NCBI RefSeq assembly: GCF_014803895.1 | Contig: NZ_JAAVAU010000023.1 | Span: 1-64,000 of the forward strand | Direction: 5' to 3' | DNA: 64,000 nt | Origin: Lactobacillus sp. | GTDB lineage: Bacteria > Bacillota > Bacilli > Lactobacillales > Lactobacillaceae | Part shown: one piece after another, positions 6,414 through 54,810 of the stretch | How the letters are laid out: every line of letters begins with the position of its first letter | How positions within the stretch are numbered: the stretch's first letter is position 1 | Made by a program: the position numbers and the translations under genes | Notes under the pieces: generated by a model | Told to the model about the DNA's origin: nothing | The model's input: only the letters and a program-made list of their open reading frames with translations | Databases searched by the model: none

Positions 6414-8169
6414 ACTCTTTAAATTGATTTTTTACATATTCGGCATAAAGAGGAGTTGACTTGATTAATTCTTGATGAGTACCAGAGCCTGAAACGGTTC
6501 CATGGTCAATAAAATAAATTTTATCTGCGTCAACTATAGTTGAAAGACGGTGAGCAATTACTAAAGTCATTCTATTTTTCATTAAATCAGTTAAAGCTTT
6601 TTGGACCATTGCTTCAGATTCGGAATCAAGACTAGCTGTTGCTTCATCAAGCATTAGTATTTTTGGATTACGTAAAAATGCTCGAGCAATAGCAATACGC
6701 TGTCTTTGACCACCAGAAAGTTTAATACCGCGTTCACCAATTTGAGTATCAAGTCCATCCTCCATTTCTTTAACAAATTTATCAGCATAAGCCATTTTAA
6801 GAACATGCCATAATTCATCATCAGTAAACTCTTTATCGAGACCATAGATTAAATTTTCACGTATACTTCCTGGCATTACAGCTGAATTTTGCCCAACAAG
6901 ACCGATTTGTTTACGCCAGTACGCTAAATCAATATTTTCAATGTTTTCATCACCAATTTTAATTTTACCGGAAGTAGGTTTGTAGAAACGTTCGATTAAC
7001 GAGAAGATAGTAGATTTGCCGCCGCCAGATGGACCAGCAAATGCAACAATGGTATTGGGCTTTGCTGTAACATTAACATTGTGTAAGATTTGCTTACCAT
7101 CTTCGTAAGAAAAGTTGATGTGATTTAAAGTCAATTCTTGACTAGAAAGATCATCAGTTTTGTTATCTTGAGAAAATTCCTCAGGCTCGTCAAGTATTTG
7201 CTTAATTCTTTGCGTAGAGCCGCTAGTTTTTGATAACTCGGTGAAGAACTGACTAATAATCAAAACAGGTGACATAATTTGGAAAAGATACATTAAAAAT
7301 GAAATTAGTGCCCCCATAGTTAAGCTGCCGTTCATAACTCTTATAGCACCGTAGCCTAAAATTCCTAAGAAAAGGATCATCATTAACATATTAGTTAATG
7401 GTTGAGTTAAAGAGTTGATTAAGGCTTCTTTTTTTCCAATGTTGAACAAGGAATTGATTCTATAGTATCCCGTATTTAATTCTTTGTTTTCAGCATTTGA
7501 AGATTTGACTAATCGAATTTCACTCAGTGTACTTGTTGAGTCACTGGAAAAATTAGCTAATTCATCTTGACGTTTTCTACCAATGCTTCGTGACTGACGC
7601 ATAATAGGGAGCATTGCCAGTAAGACTATCGGAACAGCAATAAACATAATTAAAGTCATTTGCCAATCCATTGTAAGCATAATGACGAGTGCCCCAAAGA
7701 ATTGAAGTAAACTGGTCATGGCGTTGGGTAAGGTATTGGCAAGTAAGTTTTTAACTTGTGAAGTATCGTTAACTAATCTAGAAGAAATTTCACCAGTCTT
7801 AGTATTATCAAAATAGGAGACAGGTAGATGAAGTAACTTTTGCCATAATTTTTTTCTTAAATTGGCAACAACATTTTCTCCAAAAATACCTAAAATTAAA
7901 CCTGATAAAGCGCTAATTAATAATCCACCAATAAAAACAATAATTGCAATAACTATTAAAGTAGAACTAATATTTTTGAAATTATTGATTAATTTTTGAG
8001 CTAGCTGGGGAACAAATAGGTTAGCGGCTGTAGCAATGAGTCCTAAAATTGTCCCTAAAATTAGTTGCCAATAGTGCGGATGAGTTTGACCAACTAAATT
8101 AAAAAAGCTAGAGAACTTAAATTTCTCTTTTGAATTTTCAACAGATGAAAATGATCTTGGTCTATCCAT
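6412..8169 (-). CDS. ABC multidrug exporter, full half-transporter (BmrA/LmrA-like)
   Basis: 585 residues: six membrane segments in the first 320 or so, then one ATPase domain. The ATPase is canonical, with Walker A GPSGGGKST, signature LSGGQRQR, Walker B ILMLDEATASLD and switch histidine in IAHRL. It can therefore work as a homodimer, unlike the split exporter at 11889-15384. The start at MDRPRS is chosen for the GGAGG seven bases upstream; the longer in-frame start has none. It is the second gene of an operon behind a MarR regulator, with operator palindromes in the 78-bp gap between them. The likely role is efflux of lipophilic toxins or drugs; the substrate is not known. Confidence 0.88.
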   Translation of the reverse strand: MDRPRSFSSVENSKEKFKFSSFFNLVGQTHPHYWQLILGTILGLIATAANLFVPQLAQKLINNFKNISSTLIVIAIIVFIGGLLISALSGLILGIFGENVVANLRKKLWQKLLHLPVSYFDNTKTGEISSRLVNDTSQVKNLLANTLPNAMTSLLQFFGALVIMLTMDWQMTLIMFIAVPIVLLAMLPIMRQSRSIGRKRQDELANFSSDSTSTLSEIRLVKSSNAENKELNTGYYRINSLFNIGKKEALINSLTQPLTNMLMMILFLGILGYGAIRVMNGSLTMGALISFLMYLFQIMSPVLIISQFFTELSKTSGSTQRIKQILDEPEEFSQDNKTDDLSSQELTLNHINFSYEDGKQILHNVNVTAKPNTIVAFAGPSGGGKSTIFSLIERFYKPTSGKIKIGDENIENIDLAYWRKQIGLVGQNSAVMPGSIRENLIYGLDKEFTDDELWHVLKMAYADKFVKEMEDGLDTQIGERGIKLSGGQRQRIAIARAFLRNPKILMLDEATASLDSESEAMVQKALTDLMKNRMTLVIAHRLSTIVDADKIYFIDHGTVSGSGTHQELIKSTPLYAEYVKNQFKE

Positions 8170-42053: not shown

Positions 42054-42126
42054 GACCCCGTAGTTCATCTGGATAGAACAATGGTCTCCTAAACCGTAGA
42101 GGTGAGTTCGAATCTCACCGGGGTCA
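42054..42126 (+). tRNA. tRNA-Arg (anticodon CCU)
   Basis: A complete 73-nt cloverleaf: acceptor GACCCCG/CGGGGTC, D-stem GTTC/GAAC, anticodon stem ATGGT/ACCGT around loop CTCCTAA (anticodon CCT, reading AGG), T-arm GTGAG-TTCGAAT-CTCAC, discriminator A. The CCA end is not encoded. A terminator follows at 42137. Confidence 0.96.
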
Positions 42127-48408: not shown

Positions 48409-49356
48409 ATGTTCAAAAAACATAAAAAAGCTTGGATAATAATTATATCTATTATAGCAGTTGTAGGGGCAATTTTTGTTGGGGCAGGCATGTACTTTTA
48501 CAATGTAGCAATTGTTCCAGGACAAAAGAGTTTTCTTAGCCAGAAAAAGAATTTAACAAAAACTGATCCACTCTATGCACAAACTAAATGGTATCAAAAC
48601 GTTAAAAAACAAAAATGGACTATGACATCTGCTGATGATAATTTGAAACTTGATGCAAATTATATACCAGCTGGTCATTCGAAAAAGACTGTCATCATCT
48701 TACATGGTTATATGAATAATAAAGATACTATGGGACCATATGCAGCCATGTTTCATCAATTAGGTTATAATACTTTACTGCCAGATGCGCGCGGTCATGG
48801 TGATAGTCAAGGAAATTATGTTGGTTATGGGTGGCGTGAAAAAGTTGACGTTAGAAAATGGGTCCAAAAGGTTATTCAACATAATGGGAAAGATAGTAAA
48901 ATTGTGATTTTTGGCGTTAGCATGGGTGGAGCAACCACAATGATGACTAGTGGGCTTAAACTACCAAGTCAAGTAAAGGCATTTGTTGAAGATTGTGGTT
49001 ATACAAATGCTAAAGCAGAGATTGAACACGAAGCACAAGATTTATACAATATGCCAGCATTTCCAAGATTTCCATTAGTAGAAATTTTAAGTGGTATTAC
49101 ACGTGTGCGTGCAGGATATTTCTTAGGAGATGCAAGTTCAGTTAAGCAATTAGCTAAAAATAAGCGACCAATGATGTTTATTCATGGCTCGGAAGACACA
49201 TTTGTGCCAACTTCAATGGTTTATGAAAACTATAAGGCTACTAAAGGGCCGAAAGAGCTTTGGATTGTTAAGGGGGCTAAACATGCTAAGTCATTTCAAA
49301 CTAATCCTAAAGAATATCAAAAGAAAATTGGCCAATTTTTGAATAAATATGTTTAG
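48409..49356 (+). CDS. Membrane-anchored alpha/beta hydrolase
   Basis: 315 residues. An N-terminal membrane segment (about 8-30) is followed by an alpha/beta-hydrolase fold: oxyanion loop ILHGYMNNKDTMG (about 97-109), nucleophile elbow GVSMGGATT (about 168-176, serine), acid in HGSEDTFVP (about 263-271) and histidine in KGAKHAKS (about 285-292). The triad is complete. Relatives include esterases and YqkD-type hydrolases; cinnamoyl esterases of L. johnsonii are shorter and lack the anchor. The active site would face outwards. The substrate is unknown. Confidence 0.9.
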   Translation: MFKKHKKAWIIIISIIAVVGAIFVGAGMYFYNVAIVPGQKSFLSQKKNLTKTDPLYAQTKWYQNVKKQKWTMTSADDNLKLDANYIPAGHSKKTVIILHGYMNNKDTMGPYAAMFHQLGYNTLLPDARGHGDSQGNYVGYGWREKVDVRKWVQKVIQHNGKDSKIVIFGVSMGGATTMMTSGLKLPSQVKAFVEDCGYTNAKAEIEHEAQDLYNMPAFPRFPLVEILSGITRVRAGYFLGDASSVKQLAKNKRPMMFIHGSEDTFVPTSMVYENYKATKGPKELWIVKGAKHAKSFQTNPKEYQKKIGQFLNKYV

Positions 49357-50638: not shown

Positions 50639-51867
50639 TGAAGTTTTATAAATTAACTCCGCAACAACGTCGAGAAGTCTTAGCTGAAGAAAATATTAAT
50701 TTAGCAGATATTAATGAAAAAGAATTGGCTAAATTAAATAATCTTAGTGAAAATGTAGTTGGTCAGGTTAGTTTACCTCTAGGAGTAGTTGAAAATTTAA
50801 TTGTTAATGGAAAAAGTTATTGGGTCCCAATGTCTGTTGAAGAACCATCAGTAGTGGCGGCTGCTAATCATGGAGCTAGTATTTTTGCTCAAAATAGTGG
50901 TGTAGTGGCTGATAGTCAGCGAGATGGCATCTATGGTCAGATTGTTTTAAGGGTAAATAATAGTTTTTCACTTAATGAATTAAATGACAATTTTTCTGAA
51001 TATATTGCTTTAGCTAATAATGAATTTGCTAGTTTAGTCCATCATGGTGGTGGTGTGAGAAGTATTGAAGCTAGTCAAAAAGAAAATTTAGTATATTTAA
51101 AAGTTCTAGTTGATCCGGCGGAAGCAATGGGAGCTAATAAGACTAATAGTATCTTAGAGTTTTTAAGTCAAAAAATGACTAAGTTAGCAGGTGTAGAAGA
51201 AAAATTATTTGCAATTCTGTCTAACTATCCTAGCCAATTAACAACAGCTAAAGTTAAATTATCTGTTGATACGATTGGTGGCCTTGAAGTGGCTAAAAAA
51301 ATCGCTTTACTGGCAAAGATTGGTTATGATGATCCTTATAGAGCTGCTACGAATAATAAAGGTATTATGAATGGGGTAGACAGTGTACTGATTGCTACAG
51401 GAAATGATTACCGTGGTGTTGAAGCAGCTACAGCTGTTTTAGCTAGCCAATCAGGACAGTATCGTAGTTTAAGTTCTTGGAAAGTGGAGGGAAGTTATTT
51501 ACTTGGTAAATTAACTTTACCTTTAGCTATTGGTACTGTTGGTGGATCAATTTCTGTAAGGGAAGATATCCAACAAAGCTTTTCAATTTTAAAAAATGTT
51601 AATAGTACCGAATTAGCTAATATTATAACTGCAATTGGACTAGCTAATAATTTCGCAGCTTTACTGGCAATTTCTACTAAGGGTATTCAAGCTGGCCACA
51701 TGAAGTTACAGGCTAGAAATATTGTTGCAACTTTAAACGCTACGGATATCGAGCGAGAAAAAGTTTTGACTGAAATGATTACTAGCAAGGAATTTTCTCA
51801 AAGCAGTGCCCAAGAGCTATTATTAAAATTAAGAAAAGAAGAGGAATATAATGAGTATCGGAATTGA
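50638..51867 (+). CDS. mvaA: Hydroxymethylglutaryl-CoA reductase, class II
   Basis: 409 residues. It reduces HMG-CoA to mevalonate with NAD(P)H. The class II catalytic residues are visible: glutamate in VEEPSVVAAANHG (about 77-89), lysine in TNNKGIMNG (about 238-246), aspartate in GNDYRGVEA (about 256-264) and histidine in GHMKLQARN (about 353-361). VDPAEAMGANKTN is the cofactor-binding block. It overlaps both neighbours (1 bp with the thiolase gene, 17 bp with mvaS), so the three enzymes are translated as a unit. Confidence 0.95.
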   Translation: MKFYKLTPQQRREVLAEENINLADINEKELAKLNNLSENVVGQVSLPLGVVENLIVNGKSYWVPMSVEEPSVVAAANHGASIFAQNSGVVADSQRDGIYGQIVLRVNNSFSLNELNDNFSEYIALANNEFASLVHHGGGVRSIEASQKENLVYLKVLVDPAEAMGANKTNSILEFLSQKMTKLAGVEEKLFAILSNYPSQLTTAKVKLSVDTIGGLEVAKKIALLAKIGYDDPYRAATNNKGIMNGVDSVLIATGNDYRGVEAATAVLASQSGQYRSLSSWKVEGSYLLGKLTLPLAIGTVGGSISVREDIQQSFSILKNVNSTELANIITAIGLANNFAALLAISTKGIQAGHMKLQARNIVATLNATDIEREKVLTEMITSKEFSQSSAQELLLKLRKEEEYNEYRN

Positions 51868-53017
51868 TAAGATAGGATTTTTTACGCCAAATAAGTATGT
51901 AGATATGGTTGACTTAGCTCATGCAAGAAATCAGGATCCTAATAAGTTCTTAATCGGTATCGGTCAAACTACAATGAGTGTAGCTGATAAGACTCAAGAT
52001 GCAGTATCCATGGGAATTAATGCAACTTTGCGTTATTTGGATGAAATTGATAAAGATAAAGTTGGTTTATTAATTTTTGGTACTGAAAGTAGTGTTGATC
52101 AATCTAAGTCAGCATCACTTTTTGTAAAAAATGCATTAAAACTACCTCCTAGTATGCGTGCATTTGAAGTAAAAGAAGCTTGCTTTGGTTTGACTGCTGG
52201 TTTAATGATGGCACGTGATTTTGTTCGCGCTCATCCAGATAAAACCGCAATTGTAATTGGTAGTGATATTGCACGGTACGGTATTAATACTGCTGGAGAA
52301 GTTACTCAGGGTGCGGGGAGTATTAGTTTGCTTGTTAAGAGTAACCCAAGTATTTTAGAATTAAATGATGGTCATAGTGACTACAGTGAAGATATTAATG
52401 ATTTTTGGCGACCTAATAATTCTAAGTTAGCTAAAGTGGATGGTAAATATTCTACGCAAGTATATTTAGATTTCTTTACCAAGACTTTTGAAGATTATAA
52501 AAAGCAAAAGGGCCTTGATAATCAAGACTTTACAGCAATTACTTATCATATGCCTTTCACTAAGATGGCACTTAAGGCTAATCGTATTGCTGTTGAAAAT
52601 CAAAATGAAGAAACTAGTCAGCGCTTAATGAATAAGTTTGAAGCTGCAAAAAAATGGAGTAGTTTGGTAGGAAATATTTATACTGGATCTTTATACTTAA
52701 GTTTATTAAGTTTACTTGAAAATGGTAATCTTCAAGCTGGTGATCTTGTAGGATTATTTTCTTATGGTTCGGGCGCAATGGCTGAATTTTACTCAGGCAA
52801 TGTTGTTGATGGTTATGAGAAGCAATTAGATAAAATCAATGATGAAGCTTTAATTAATAACCGACAAAAACTCTCAATTAATGAATATGAAAAAATTTTT
52901 ACTGAAGCATTGGAAGATCCAGAAGATGGTGTAGAATTTTCTAGTGATGAAAAAACTGGCACTTGGTACTTTGCAGGTGTTAAAAATGATATTCGACAAT
53001 ATAGAGAAGTGCAATAA
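51851..53017 (+). CDS. mvaS: Hydroxymethylglutaryl-CoA synthase
   Basis: 388 residues. It joins acetyl-CoA and acetoacetyl-CoA into HMG-CoA. The catalytic glutamate in FGTESSVDQSK (about residues 76-86), cysteine in VKEACFGLTAG (about 107-117) and histidine in ITYHMPFTKMA (about 233-243) are in place. It is the last gene of the upper mevalonate operon. Three bases after its stop codon, the -35 box of a separate promoter begins for the RNA gene at 53051. Confidence 0.95.
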   Translation: MSIGIDKIGFFTPNKYVDMVDLAHARNQDPNKFLIGIGQTTMSVADKTQDAVSMGINATLRYLDEIDKDKVGLLIFGTESSVDQSKSASLFVKNALKLPPSMRAFEVKEACFGLTAGLMMARDFVRAHPDKTAIVIGSDIARYGINTAGEVTQGAGSISLLVKSNPSILELNDGHSDYSEDINDFWRPNNSKLAKVDGKYSTQVYLDFFTKTFEDYKKQKGLDNQDFTAITYHMPFTKMALKANRIAVENQNEETSQRLMNKFEAAKKWSSLVGNIYTGSLYLSLLSLLENGNLQAGDLVGLFSYGSGAMAEFYSGNVVDGYEKQLDKINDEALINNRQKLSINEYEKIFTEALEDPEDGVEFSSDEKTGTWYFAGVKNDIRQYREVQ

Positions 53018-53019
53018 TT

Positions 53020-53048
53020 TTGAAATCGTTTTCAAATACTGATATAAT
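53020..53048 (+). promoter_or_regulatory. Strong promoter with a perfect cre site in its spacer
   Basis: TTGAAA (53020-53025), 17-bp spacer, TATAAT (53043-53048). TGAAATCGTTTTCA (53021-53034) matches the catabolite-responsive consensus TGWAANCGNTNWCA at all 14 positions and overlaps the -35 box. CcpA bound here would block RNA polymerase, so the transcript should be low on glucose and high when preferred sugar is absent. The promoter and cre are seen; the regulation is inferred from known CcpA biology. Confidence 0.85.
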
Positions 53049-53050
53049 AA

Positions 53051-53272
53051 GAAGTGTGGATGAGGTAATATATAATTAATTTTTATCTCCAGATCGTAGT
53101 ATTTTAAAGACAGATTCTTTTAGTAAATCAATAGTCGTTATTCAATTCACAATGATAAGTGATGTTGATTATGCTGTAAGCTGTTTTTGAGCTTCTCTTT
53201 GCTTACAGCGCTAGATAGTTAAATTACCTTAACCACCCGCGCAGACTGACTGTTCTAGTCAGTCTGTTTTTA
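53051..53272 (+). ncRNA. Structured small RNA, about 220 nt, unassigned (6S-like shape possible)
   Basis: It starts at about 53051-53056 and has no ORF of substance. The 5' and 3' parts pair: GTGG (53056-53059) with CCAC (53233-53236) and AGGTAAT (53063-53069) with ATTACCT (53223-53229) around a 3x3 internal loop. Inside lie a 9-bp hairpin GCTGTAAGC/GCTTACAGC (53173-53209) with a pyrimidine-rich loop, and a stem AATCAA/TTGATT (53126-53170) capped by TCAC/GTGA. A terminator AGACTGACT/AGTCAGTCT (53243-53265) with T-run ends it. Closed ends around a bubble resemble 6S RNA, but a cre-controlled promoter would be unusual for 6S. CU-rich segments (ATCTCC at 53085-53090 and the hairpin loop) could pair with ribosome sites. 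Identity is open. Confidence 0.7.
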
Positions 53273-53275
53273 TTT

Positions 53276-53306
53276 ATAAAAAAAGCAACTCAATTGAGTT
53301 GCTTTT
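53276..53306. terminator. Terminator of the rRNA methyltransferase gene
   Basis: AAAAGCAACTCAA and TTGAGTTGCTTTT form a perfect palindrome. On the minus strand it is followed by seven T residues, just beyond the stop codon at 53311. Confidence 0.9.
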
Positions 53307-53310
53307 AAAA

Positions 53311-54690
53311 CTATTTATCTTTTCTTAAAACAAGCTTTGCGATACCTTCCCAACGTGGAGTTTGAGGCATCATATCTACTGGTTTAATTACCCGAACGTC
53401 ATATGCTTCACTAAGTAAAATCAGATCTTTTGCTAGGGTTGAAGGATTACATGAGATATAAACAAAAGTTTCTGGTTTAACTTCAAGAAGTGTCTTAATT
53501 AGTTTCTTGTTTAAACCGGTTCTTGGAGGATCAACAATAACAGCATCAATTGGTACACCTTGTTTTTTAAGGTCAGGTAGTACTTTTTCGACATTACCCT
53601 GAATATATTCTGCATTCTTAATATGATTTAATTCCGTATTATGTTGTGCATCAGTTACTGCTTCAGGGATGCTCTCGATTCCGATAACTTGATGAGCACG
53701 GTCACTTGCTAAAATACCTAAAGTTCCAACACCACTATAAGCATCAATTAGGACCTGATCTGGAGTTAAATCAAGATATTTTAATGCTTCGCTATAAAGG
53801 TTTGTGGTTTGTTTAGGATTTAATTGGAAGAAAGCGCGAGGAGAAAGCTTAAATTTTTTGCCTAAGATTTCTTCAGTAATTTCGTTTTTACCAAATAGCT
53901 TAGTTGTTTTATTACCCCAAACTTGTGGATTATTCCATTGAGTTTCATTTTGAAAAACGCTAACTACATTAGGAAGTTTCATAATTTCTTTAGCTAAAGG
54001 AATTAGATTTTTTATTTTTTTACCAATTGTAATTAAAGTTACTTGAATTTCCTTAGTAGAAAAGGATTCTCTTACTACAATTGTTTTAATACCATCAGAT
54101 TTTCTACGATAGTTTGCAACAGGAACTCTAAATTTAGAAATTAACTTTTTAATATCCCGCTCAGTTTTTTGCGTAGCTTTAGATTGGGTAGGCATTTCTG
54201 GTAAATCTATCAAATCACGTGAATTTGGTGCGTATAAACCAAGCTTACTTTTGCCCTTCAAAAATTCAATTTGGTATTGTGCCTTATTGCGGTAGTGCCA
54301 TTCTTCTGGGGCTGGGAGAGTATTTTTAACTTTAATTTTTTGGTAGTTACGTGGATGAAATTTACGCAAGGATTCTAGTATCAAATGTTTTTTAAATTCA
54401 AGTTGTTTAGGATAAGATAAGTGAGCGAGTTCTAATCCACCTACGCGAGGGTCAACACCTTTTGGAAAAGTAACTCGGTCGGGAGATTTTTCTTTAATTC
54501 TTACTAATTCTCCTTCAAGATAGTGTGGGAAGCGTTTAGTAATTTTAGCTACTACAACTTCATCAGGTAAAGCACCAGGAATAAAAATAATTTTCTTTTT
54601 GTAATAGCCAATGCCTTCACCATTGATGCCTAAACGTTTAATAGTAACAATGATGTCTTTTTCAGTTTTATTTTTTGTAAATTTTGTCAA
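53311..54690 (-). CDS. rlmCD: 23S rRNA (uracil-5)-methyltransferase, RumA/RlmCD family
   Basis: 459 residues. It methylates uridines of 23S rRNA at C5. An N-terminal TRAM domain (IKRLGINGEGIGYYKKKIIFIPG region, up to about residue 60) precedes a Rossmann methyltransferase with SAM loop DAYSGVGTLGI (about 331-341), VDPPRTGL (about 397-404) and catalytic cysteine in YISCNPSTLAKD (about 422-433). No four-cysteine iron-sulfur cluster is seen, as in other Firmicute members. The start is TTG at 54690 with GAGGA upstream, giving MTKFTKN; the 40-codon upstream extension lacks a ribosome site and runs into the promoter of divergent recX. Which uridines it modifies is not certain. Confidence 0.9.
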   Translation of the reverse strand: MTKFTKNKTEKDIIVTIKRLGINGEGIGYYKKKIIFIPGALPDEVVVAKITKRFPHYLEGELVRIKEKSPDRVTFPKGVDPRVGGLELAHLSYPKQLEFKKHLILESLRKFHPRNYQKIKVKNTLPAPEEWHYRNKAQYQIEFLKGKSKLGLYAPNSRDLIDLPEMPTQSKATQKTERDIKKLISKFRVPVANYRRKSDGIKTIVVRESFSTKEIQVTLITIGKKIKNLIPLAKEIMKLPNVVSVFQNETQWNNPQVWGNKTTKLFGKNEITEEILGKKFKLSPRAFFQLNPKQTTNLYSEALKYLDLTPDQVLIDAYSGVGTLGILASDRAHQVIGIESIPEAVTDAQHNTELNHIKNAEYIQGNVEKVLPDLKKQGVPIDAVIVDPPRTGLNKKLIKTLLEVKPETFVYISCNPSTLAKDLILLSEAYDVRVIKPVDMMPQTPRWEGIAKLVLRKDK

Positions 54691-54810
54691 AATTAAGTCC
54701 TCATTTCGATTAAACCTAAAAAAAGTGTCACAATTATCATAAGCGCTATTTATTTTTAGCACAAGCAAATTAATTACGTATTTATTATTATAAAGAAAAG
54801 AGGGATACAA

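Follow-up and report, generated by a model that had tools for sequence, protein, structure and literature searches.

The region between mvaS and rlmD

In the window (the whole 64 kb stretch of DNA analysed), the mvaS gene (51851..53017, + strand; TIGR01835, 454.7 bits), which is the upstream gene here and in part of the genus, is followed by a predicted small RNA gene and then by the convergent rlmD gene encoding 23S rRNA uracil-1939 methyltransferase (53311..54810, − strand; TIGR00479, 384 bits for a cut-off of 183.55). The RNA gene and all its features described below lie on the + strand. A near-ideal promoter had been proposed right after mvaS, and the sequence agreed with this proposal: a TTGAAA box (53020-53025) and a TATAAT box (53043-53048), 17 nt apart, match the consensus at 11 of 12 positions and are accompanied by a TG before the −10 box, a layout (53020..53048) that was shared by 39 copies of the gene. 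Promoter-like sites as such were not in excess (4 per 700 bases vs. 3.5 in shuffled sequences), the TTGAAA-TATAAT site being the best of them. The predicted transcript of about 217 nt (53055..53271), the start of which was placed 7 nt past the −10 box, is supported by the promoter, the terminator, the fold, the absence of an ORF, and the conservation of the family. At its 3' end, the terminator scan detected the strong intrinsic terminator that had been expected (12 pairs, 53241..53271), and two overlapping terminator-like matches were found there vs. 0.2 expected.

The well-folded stretch of about 190 nt without a useful ORF was likewise recovered. The fold of 53050-53290 reached −58.5 kcal/mol (z −3.79), with none of 200 shuffled sequences as stable, and no ORF of at least 30 aa overlapped the small RNA on either strand of the window. 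A coding gene was rejected on the lack of such ORFs and because the lengths of the closed part, that is, the part enclosed by the paired ends, cover all three reading frames among the copies (in 37 copies, no ORF exceeds 39 aa).

The consensus of the cre site, the operator of CcpA, is TGWNANCGNTNWCA. The site TGAAATCGTTTTCA (53021..53034), which overlaps the −35 box and extends into the spacer, was the only exact match to this consensus in the 64 kb, in accordance with the 14-of-14 site of the original prediction; with up to one mismatch, eight matches were found vs. 6.45 expected.

Distribution of the RNA and its CcpA site

When mvaS was used as bait, 35 loci were obtained from Lactobacillus genomes. 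The RNA was found by motif search in 17 of them, and a diverged copy (locus L031, genome G006) brought the total to 18. The nearest copy was that of L. colini (L001), to which the species of the window also seems closer, its mvaS being 87% identical to that of L. colini vs. 79% for L. johnsonii. For the 5' domain, a model based on sequence alone (R1) was built from 19 sequences, that of the window among them. It matched 44 of 75 Lactobacillus genomes, with a single match per genome (41 at E <1e-7 and three weak ones). The weak matches in G104 and G425 were confirmed at their loci (L097 and L345), and G426 is counted among the 44 on its weak R1 match alone. With strict filters, R1 matched 24 of the 397 genomes of the host family, 23 of which are on the genus list, and an exact pattern was present in 14 of the 397 with no control match. 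No match to the RNA was found in the plasmid collection or in the viral contigs.

The constant neighbour of the RNA is the convergent rlmD gene, which ends shortly past the RNA terminator. Through this neighbour, 29 of the 31 genomes without an R1 match were viewed, the 30th handle being that of G425, and the rlmD locus was readable in 25 R1-negative genomes. Diverged copies were present in 19 of these 25; in 18, the same place beside rlmD was occupied by a cre promoter with a transcript and a terminator behind it, a cre with at most two mismatches having been part of the selection of these 18 copies. The RNA of locus L323, in which the cre appeared degraded by eye, is also counted among the 19. 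Five readable loci (L320, L341-L344) were empty of the RNA, and at L340 the RNA locus looked decayed by eye; G416, G424, G440, G443, and G446 were left out of the genomes settled for the RNA. At L324, the cre, promoter, and terminator are present, and the closing stem and the conserved segment described below are not recognisable. Outside the genus, the RNA was found at one of 28 rlmD loci (L352), with the 5' motif, the segment, and the 3' arm; past the RNA terminator of this locus, about 37 bases (TTAGTGCTCATTTTCACCCGGTTGTTGTCGCTACTTA) occur in two copies. The closed part of the RNA measures about 100 nt in the shortest forms (L321, L345), about 180-190 nt in the window and the johnsonii group, and up to 326 nt. 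It is this conservation across copies that sets the RNA gene beyond chance. As judged by sequence comparison, positions 53020-53271 of the window are thus a real, noncoding RNA gene with its own promoter and terminator, belonging to a single-copy gene family that is absent from Rfam and extends through most of Lactobacillus.

The cre site was analysed in 39 non-identical copies selected for the 5' motif and a loosely defined −10 box, regardless of cre. The best upstream site had no mismatch in six copies, one in 24, two in seven, and three in two (L028 and L048). Sites with at most two mismatches were thus found in 37 of the 39 copies vs. 6.5% of random 60-base stretches from the same loci (1.8% for at most one mismatch), percentages that are not independent trials because the copies are related. 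The −10 box starts 20-23 nt past the start of the cre, a near-fixed spacing. When the 20 copies found by locus were added, 23 distinct cre sequences were observed among 59 copies; positions 8 and 10 were invariant, positions 1, 2, 4, 11, and 14 varied once, and all four bases were seen at the free positions 6 and 9. This drift at the free positions, while the fixed ones are held, suggests that the site is selected as a cre, and sequence comparison thereby establishes a cre-bearing promoter. CcpA control of the small RNA is very likely on this evidence. For 6S RNA genes, a cre lying across the −35 box has been argued to predict repression (PMC8414754, in part), and we infer that the RNA is expressed and is repressed by CcpA. 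With the CcpA site in its promoter, it would probably be turned on once good sugars run out.

Fold, conserved segment, and possible switch

The ends of the RNA had been proposed to pair, and the closing stem was indeed found, formed by a 5' arm GTGGATGAGGTAAT (53056..53069), which contains a Shine-Dalgarno-like GAGGU, and a 3' arm ATTACCTTAACCAC (53223..53236), with one internal A/A mismatch. Relatives were aligned and analysed for covariation. In the long forms, which are multi-branched (alignment A4, 18 sequences), 97.7% of the cells of the closing stem and three helices were paired vs. 96.1% in shuffles. Four pairs were double-changed vs. 1.4 in shuffles, a value reached in 1 of 500, and the covariation score was 0.174 vs. 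0.142 (0 of 500); the pair-type count showed no excess over shuffles in this alignment. Sliding the structure by −2 also yielded four double-changed pairs, yet only 34% of the cells then pair. In the short forms (alignment A5, nine distinct rows, with L001 shifted by one column), a nine-pair hairpin had six double-changed pairs vs. 2.8 (5 of 500 shuffles) and a covariation score of 0.537 vs. 0.283 (0 of 500), again with no excess in the pair-type count of A5. The invariant pairs of the closing stem are uninformative for or against covariation; in L345, this stem is made from a different sequence (TTAGAGGGGAGC with GTTCCCCTCTAA).

The 9-bp hairpin with a CU-rich loop put forward for the window (53173..53209; arms 53173-53181 and 53201-53209) was recovered: its arms were found, and six of its nine pairs are double-changed in the short forms. 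It is absent from the minimum-energy structure predicted for the window by itself, so that it rests on covariation. The long forms also contain another unpaired stretch (AAAGACCCGAACAAGUGAAUGUU) that hardly varies among them (e.g., L004, approximately 6730-6770) and that is shorter in the short forms.

A segment TTTTTATCTCCA (53080..53091), with the ATCTCC of the original prediction at 53085-53090, is conserved and mostly unpaired and is a putative seed. In its general form, UUUUUAUCUCCA, it comes after the 5' arm in long forms as well as in short ones and varies little. As TATCTCCA had served to find the 39 copies, a fair test has to use the 19 diverged copies that were detected through their locus, the arms of which differ clearly from those of the window. 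The segment was often kept in them, as TATCTCC in nine, TATTTCC in two (by eye), and AATCTCT in five, with neither form in three. Its mean unpaired probability was 0.60 vs. 0.43 averaged over every 8-base window in these RNAs, in 53 of the 57 transcripts with a recognisable segment, some of which have crude ends (L352, L333). Both the fold and the conserved segment are thus established by comparison across copies.

The 5' arm may pair with this segment first and with the 3' arm later in most copies. In models of transcripts cut 25 nt past the segment, the 5' arm paired with the segment (mean 0.81, 37 copies), whereas in the full transcript it paired with the 3' arm (mean 0.93, 37 copies); the two remaining copies of the 39 have no recognised 3' arm. 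The model gives a mixed state for L009 and L068 and no nascent pairing for L028. Members of the bee-associated clade have a 5' arm that is mismatched to the segment, and the switch pairing is lost there (by eye). The putative switch is thus not universal, and since the segment is kept in this clade, its retention does not come from that pairing alone. Two copies (L331, L334) have the cre, promoter, and closing stem but no TATCTCC; in these, GTGGATGGGG forms the 5' arm, and its pairing partner is CCCTGTCCAC.

Candidate targets and interpretation

Ribosome sites were recognised by the Shine-Dalgarno rules, under which the seed AUCUCC could mask sites containing GGAGAU. The exact complement of the seed (TGGAGATAAAA) occurred outside the RNA at 29 places vs. 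18 for the reversed control (eight genomes). GGAGATA placed 2-8 bases before an ATG occurred at 206 places vs. 69 for the reversed control, in excess in all six genomes, as would be expected of any ribosome-site motif. At least 39 lines with a start ORF of more than 35 aa were read, some sites appearing twice. The genes behind these sites, which were identified by eye on the basis of their N-terminal sequences, included phosphoketolase, pyruvate oxidase, PTS components, HPr, a sugar permease, and a maltose-phosphorylase-like protein; sites were also present before housekeeping-like genes (dnaX-, gmk-, alaS-, and glmS-like, by eye).

Two candidate targets were followed across the genus. The phosphoketolase gene xpk matched in 72 genomes, with 66 of 70 fetched sites read, and the pyruvate oxidase gene pox in 68, with all 65 fetched sites read. 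GGAGATA was found at xpk in 11 of 40 R1-positive vs. 1 of 26 R1-negative genomes, and at pox in 1 of 40 vs. 6 of 25, but these splits are no valid test since the R1 labels are wrong for the bee-associated clade. In four of the five genomes with an empty rlmD locus (G447, G431, G262, and G435, not G423), pox keeps AAGGAGATG, which is evidence against pox as a specific target. Upstream of pyruvate oxidase, the ribosome site (AAGGAGATGCACTT or near it) is strikingly conserved genus-wide whether the RNA is present or not (L215-L244, L285-L319). As the target searches had no clear winner, the function of the RNA is argued from anatomy and analogy.

The RNA has the features of the class of CcpA-repressed small RNAs, namely a cre overlapping the promoter, its own promoter and terminator, and no ORF. 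RsaI (RsaOG) of Staphylococcus aureus is likewise a stand-alone, CcpA-repressed RNA, and it pairs with Shine-Dalgarno sequences and thereby blocks translation (PMC9266662, in part); the likeness lies in the cre-bearing promoter, from which repression is predicted here, in a putative pairing of the same kind, and in the C-rich and G-rich regions that RsaI also has (PMC8216469, in part). Unlike RsaOG, the Lactobacillus RNA has no Rfam match at gathering score, and it measures 100-330 nt with paired ends. RosA of Bacillus subtilis is also stand-alone and CcpA-repressed (PMC8216469, in part), a repression that the cre predicts here as well; RosA itself acts as a sponge for RoxS and FsrA, whereas the likeness drawn here covers its stand-alone nature and CcpA control. 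An abundant RNA of Lactobacillus salivarius is likewise noncoding and from a lactobacillus in the old sense, but differs in being 520 nt long, encoded on a megaplasmid, and species-specific (PMC5643018, in part). Besides 6S, no carbon-controlled regulatory RNA of Lactobacillus was found in the literature searched, mostly without subscription papers.

We favour, with about even confidence, the reading of a CcpA-repressed small RNA that is released as sugars run out and whose segment blocks GGAGAU(AAA)-type ribosome sites. CcpA would repress the gene while preferred sugars are plentiful and release it when these run out; the transcript would fold into a body with paired ends that leaves UUUUUAUCUCCA mostly unpaired, and the free segment would pair with the ribosome sites of a set of mRNAs, some of them probably of carbon metabolism, and block their translation. 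In most copies, the 5' arm could hold the segment at first and then change over to the 3' arm, which would leave the segment free in completed transcripts only. This mechanism is plausible in outline and unproven in detail. Lactobacillus comprises species of the gut, the vagina, dairy products, and honeybees, which depend on sugar supply for their way of life, and an RNA gene that is present once per genome and has retained its CcpA site across most of this genus would offer an entry point to a possible RNA layer of carbon control. A bolder version, which we consider unlikely, is a self-timed translation brake, in which the Shine-Dalgarno-like 5' arm of nascent or cut RNA hides the anti-Shine-Dalgarno-like segment until synthesis of the 3' arm allows the two arms to close and the segment to be set free. 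If this were true, only complete transcripts, made once CcpA lets go, would mask ribosome sites broadly in sugar-starved Lactobacillus.

Instead of mRNAs, the G-rich 5' arm or the CUCC segment might titrate small RNAs, as RosA does. Such a sponge would fit the CcpA control seen in RosA and RsaI (PMC8216469, PMC9266662, both in part) and the strong conservation of the G-rich arm GUGGAAGAGGUAG in most copies, but at full length the 3' arm occupies it (mean pairing 0.93, 37 copies), and we regard the sponge as improbable. The region could also be the mere 3' end of the mevalonate operon transcript, with a long structured terminator region. Indeed, mvaS stops three bases before the −35 box, and since the scan found no + strand terminator between them, transcripts of the operon would run through. 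However, among the 18 fetched mvaS loci holding the RNA, mvaS is directly upstream in eight and not in the other ten, where promoter and cre are kept. The same holds for the bee-associated species, in which the RNA is preceded by an alpha/beta hydrolase gene (a relative of the one at 48409-49356 of the window, both by eye), with no mevalonate operon between. This reading is accordingly very unlikely. A general mevalonate link was rejected, since rlmD is the constant neighbour and mvaS is directly upstream in just 8 of 18 loci; the position behind the operon holds in the window, and the mevalonate connection is positional. The original prediction thus stood as regards an RNA gene with its own promoter and terminator, a conserved CcpA site, and no useful ORF, which is not 6S, but lost its tie to the mevalonate operon.

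The main alternative had been 6S RNA, and this was not borne out. No Rfam family matched the RNA at gathering score in the window or in the 17 further loci holding it; the only such match of the window is a tRNA (42054-42126), and open thresholds gave only weak matches on the RNA. RF00013 is blind to this genus, missing even its own 6S (matches in 0 of 10 genomes). The 6S of this genus, Lacto-usp, was found elsewhere in nine of ten genomes holding the RNA, and in L. johnsonii it lies between rarA- and usp-like genes (L051; genes named by eye). Since no Rfam model matched and Lacto-usp occupies this other locus of the same genomes, while the RNA lies by rlmD, identity with 6S was rejected. Whether the RNA might be an additional, 6S-like one, binding RNA polymerase and expressed at sugar shortage, is a different matter: like Lacto-usp, the RNA is structured, with paired ends around a large open region, and about one third of the species of lactic acid bacteria carry a cre at the 6S gene (PMC8414754, in part). 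However, the long forms are multi-branched, Lacto-usp is present in its own place, and no Rfam model matches, blind as RF00013 is here, so that we consider such an RNA quite improbable compared with a blocker of ribosome sites. In eight 6S promoters (L051-L058, up to about 100 bases upstream of the Lacto-usp match), in contrast to the RNA by rlmD, no cre with at most one mismatch lay across the −35 box; two-mismatch matches touch it in L051 and L056, and a one-mismatch match lies just upstream in L052. Separately, locus L036 (genome G007) gave a sub-threshold match to Lacto-rpoB (RF01709), with 35.7 bits for a cut-off of 40.
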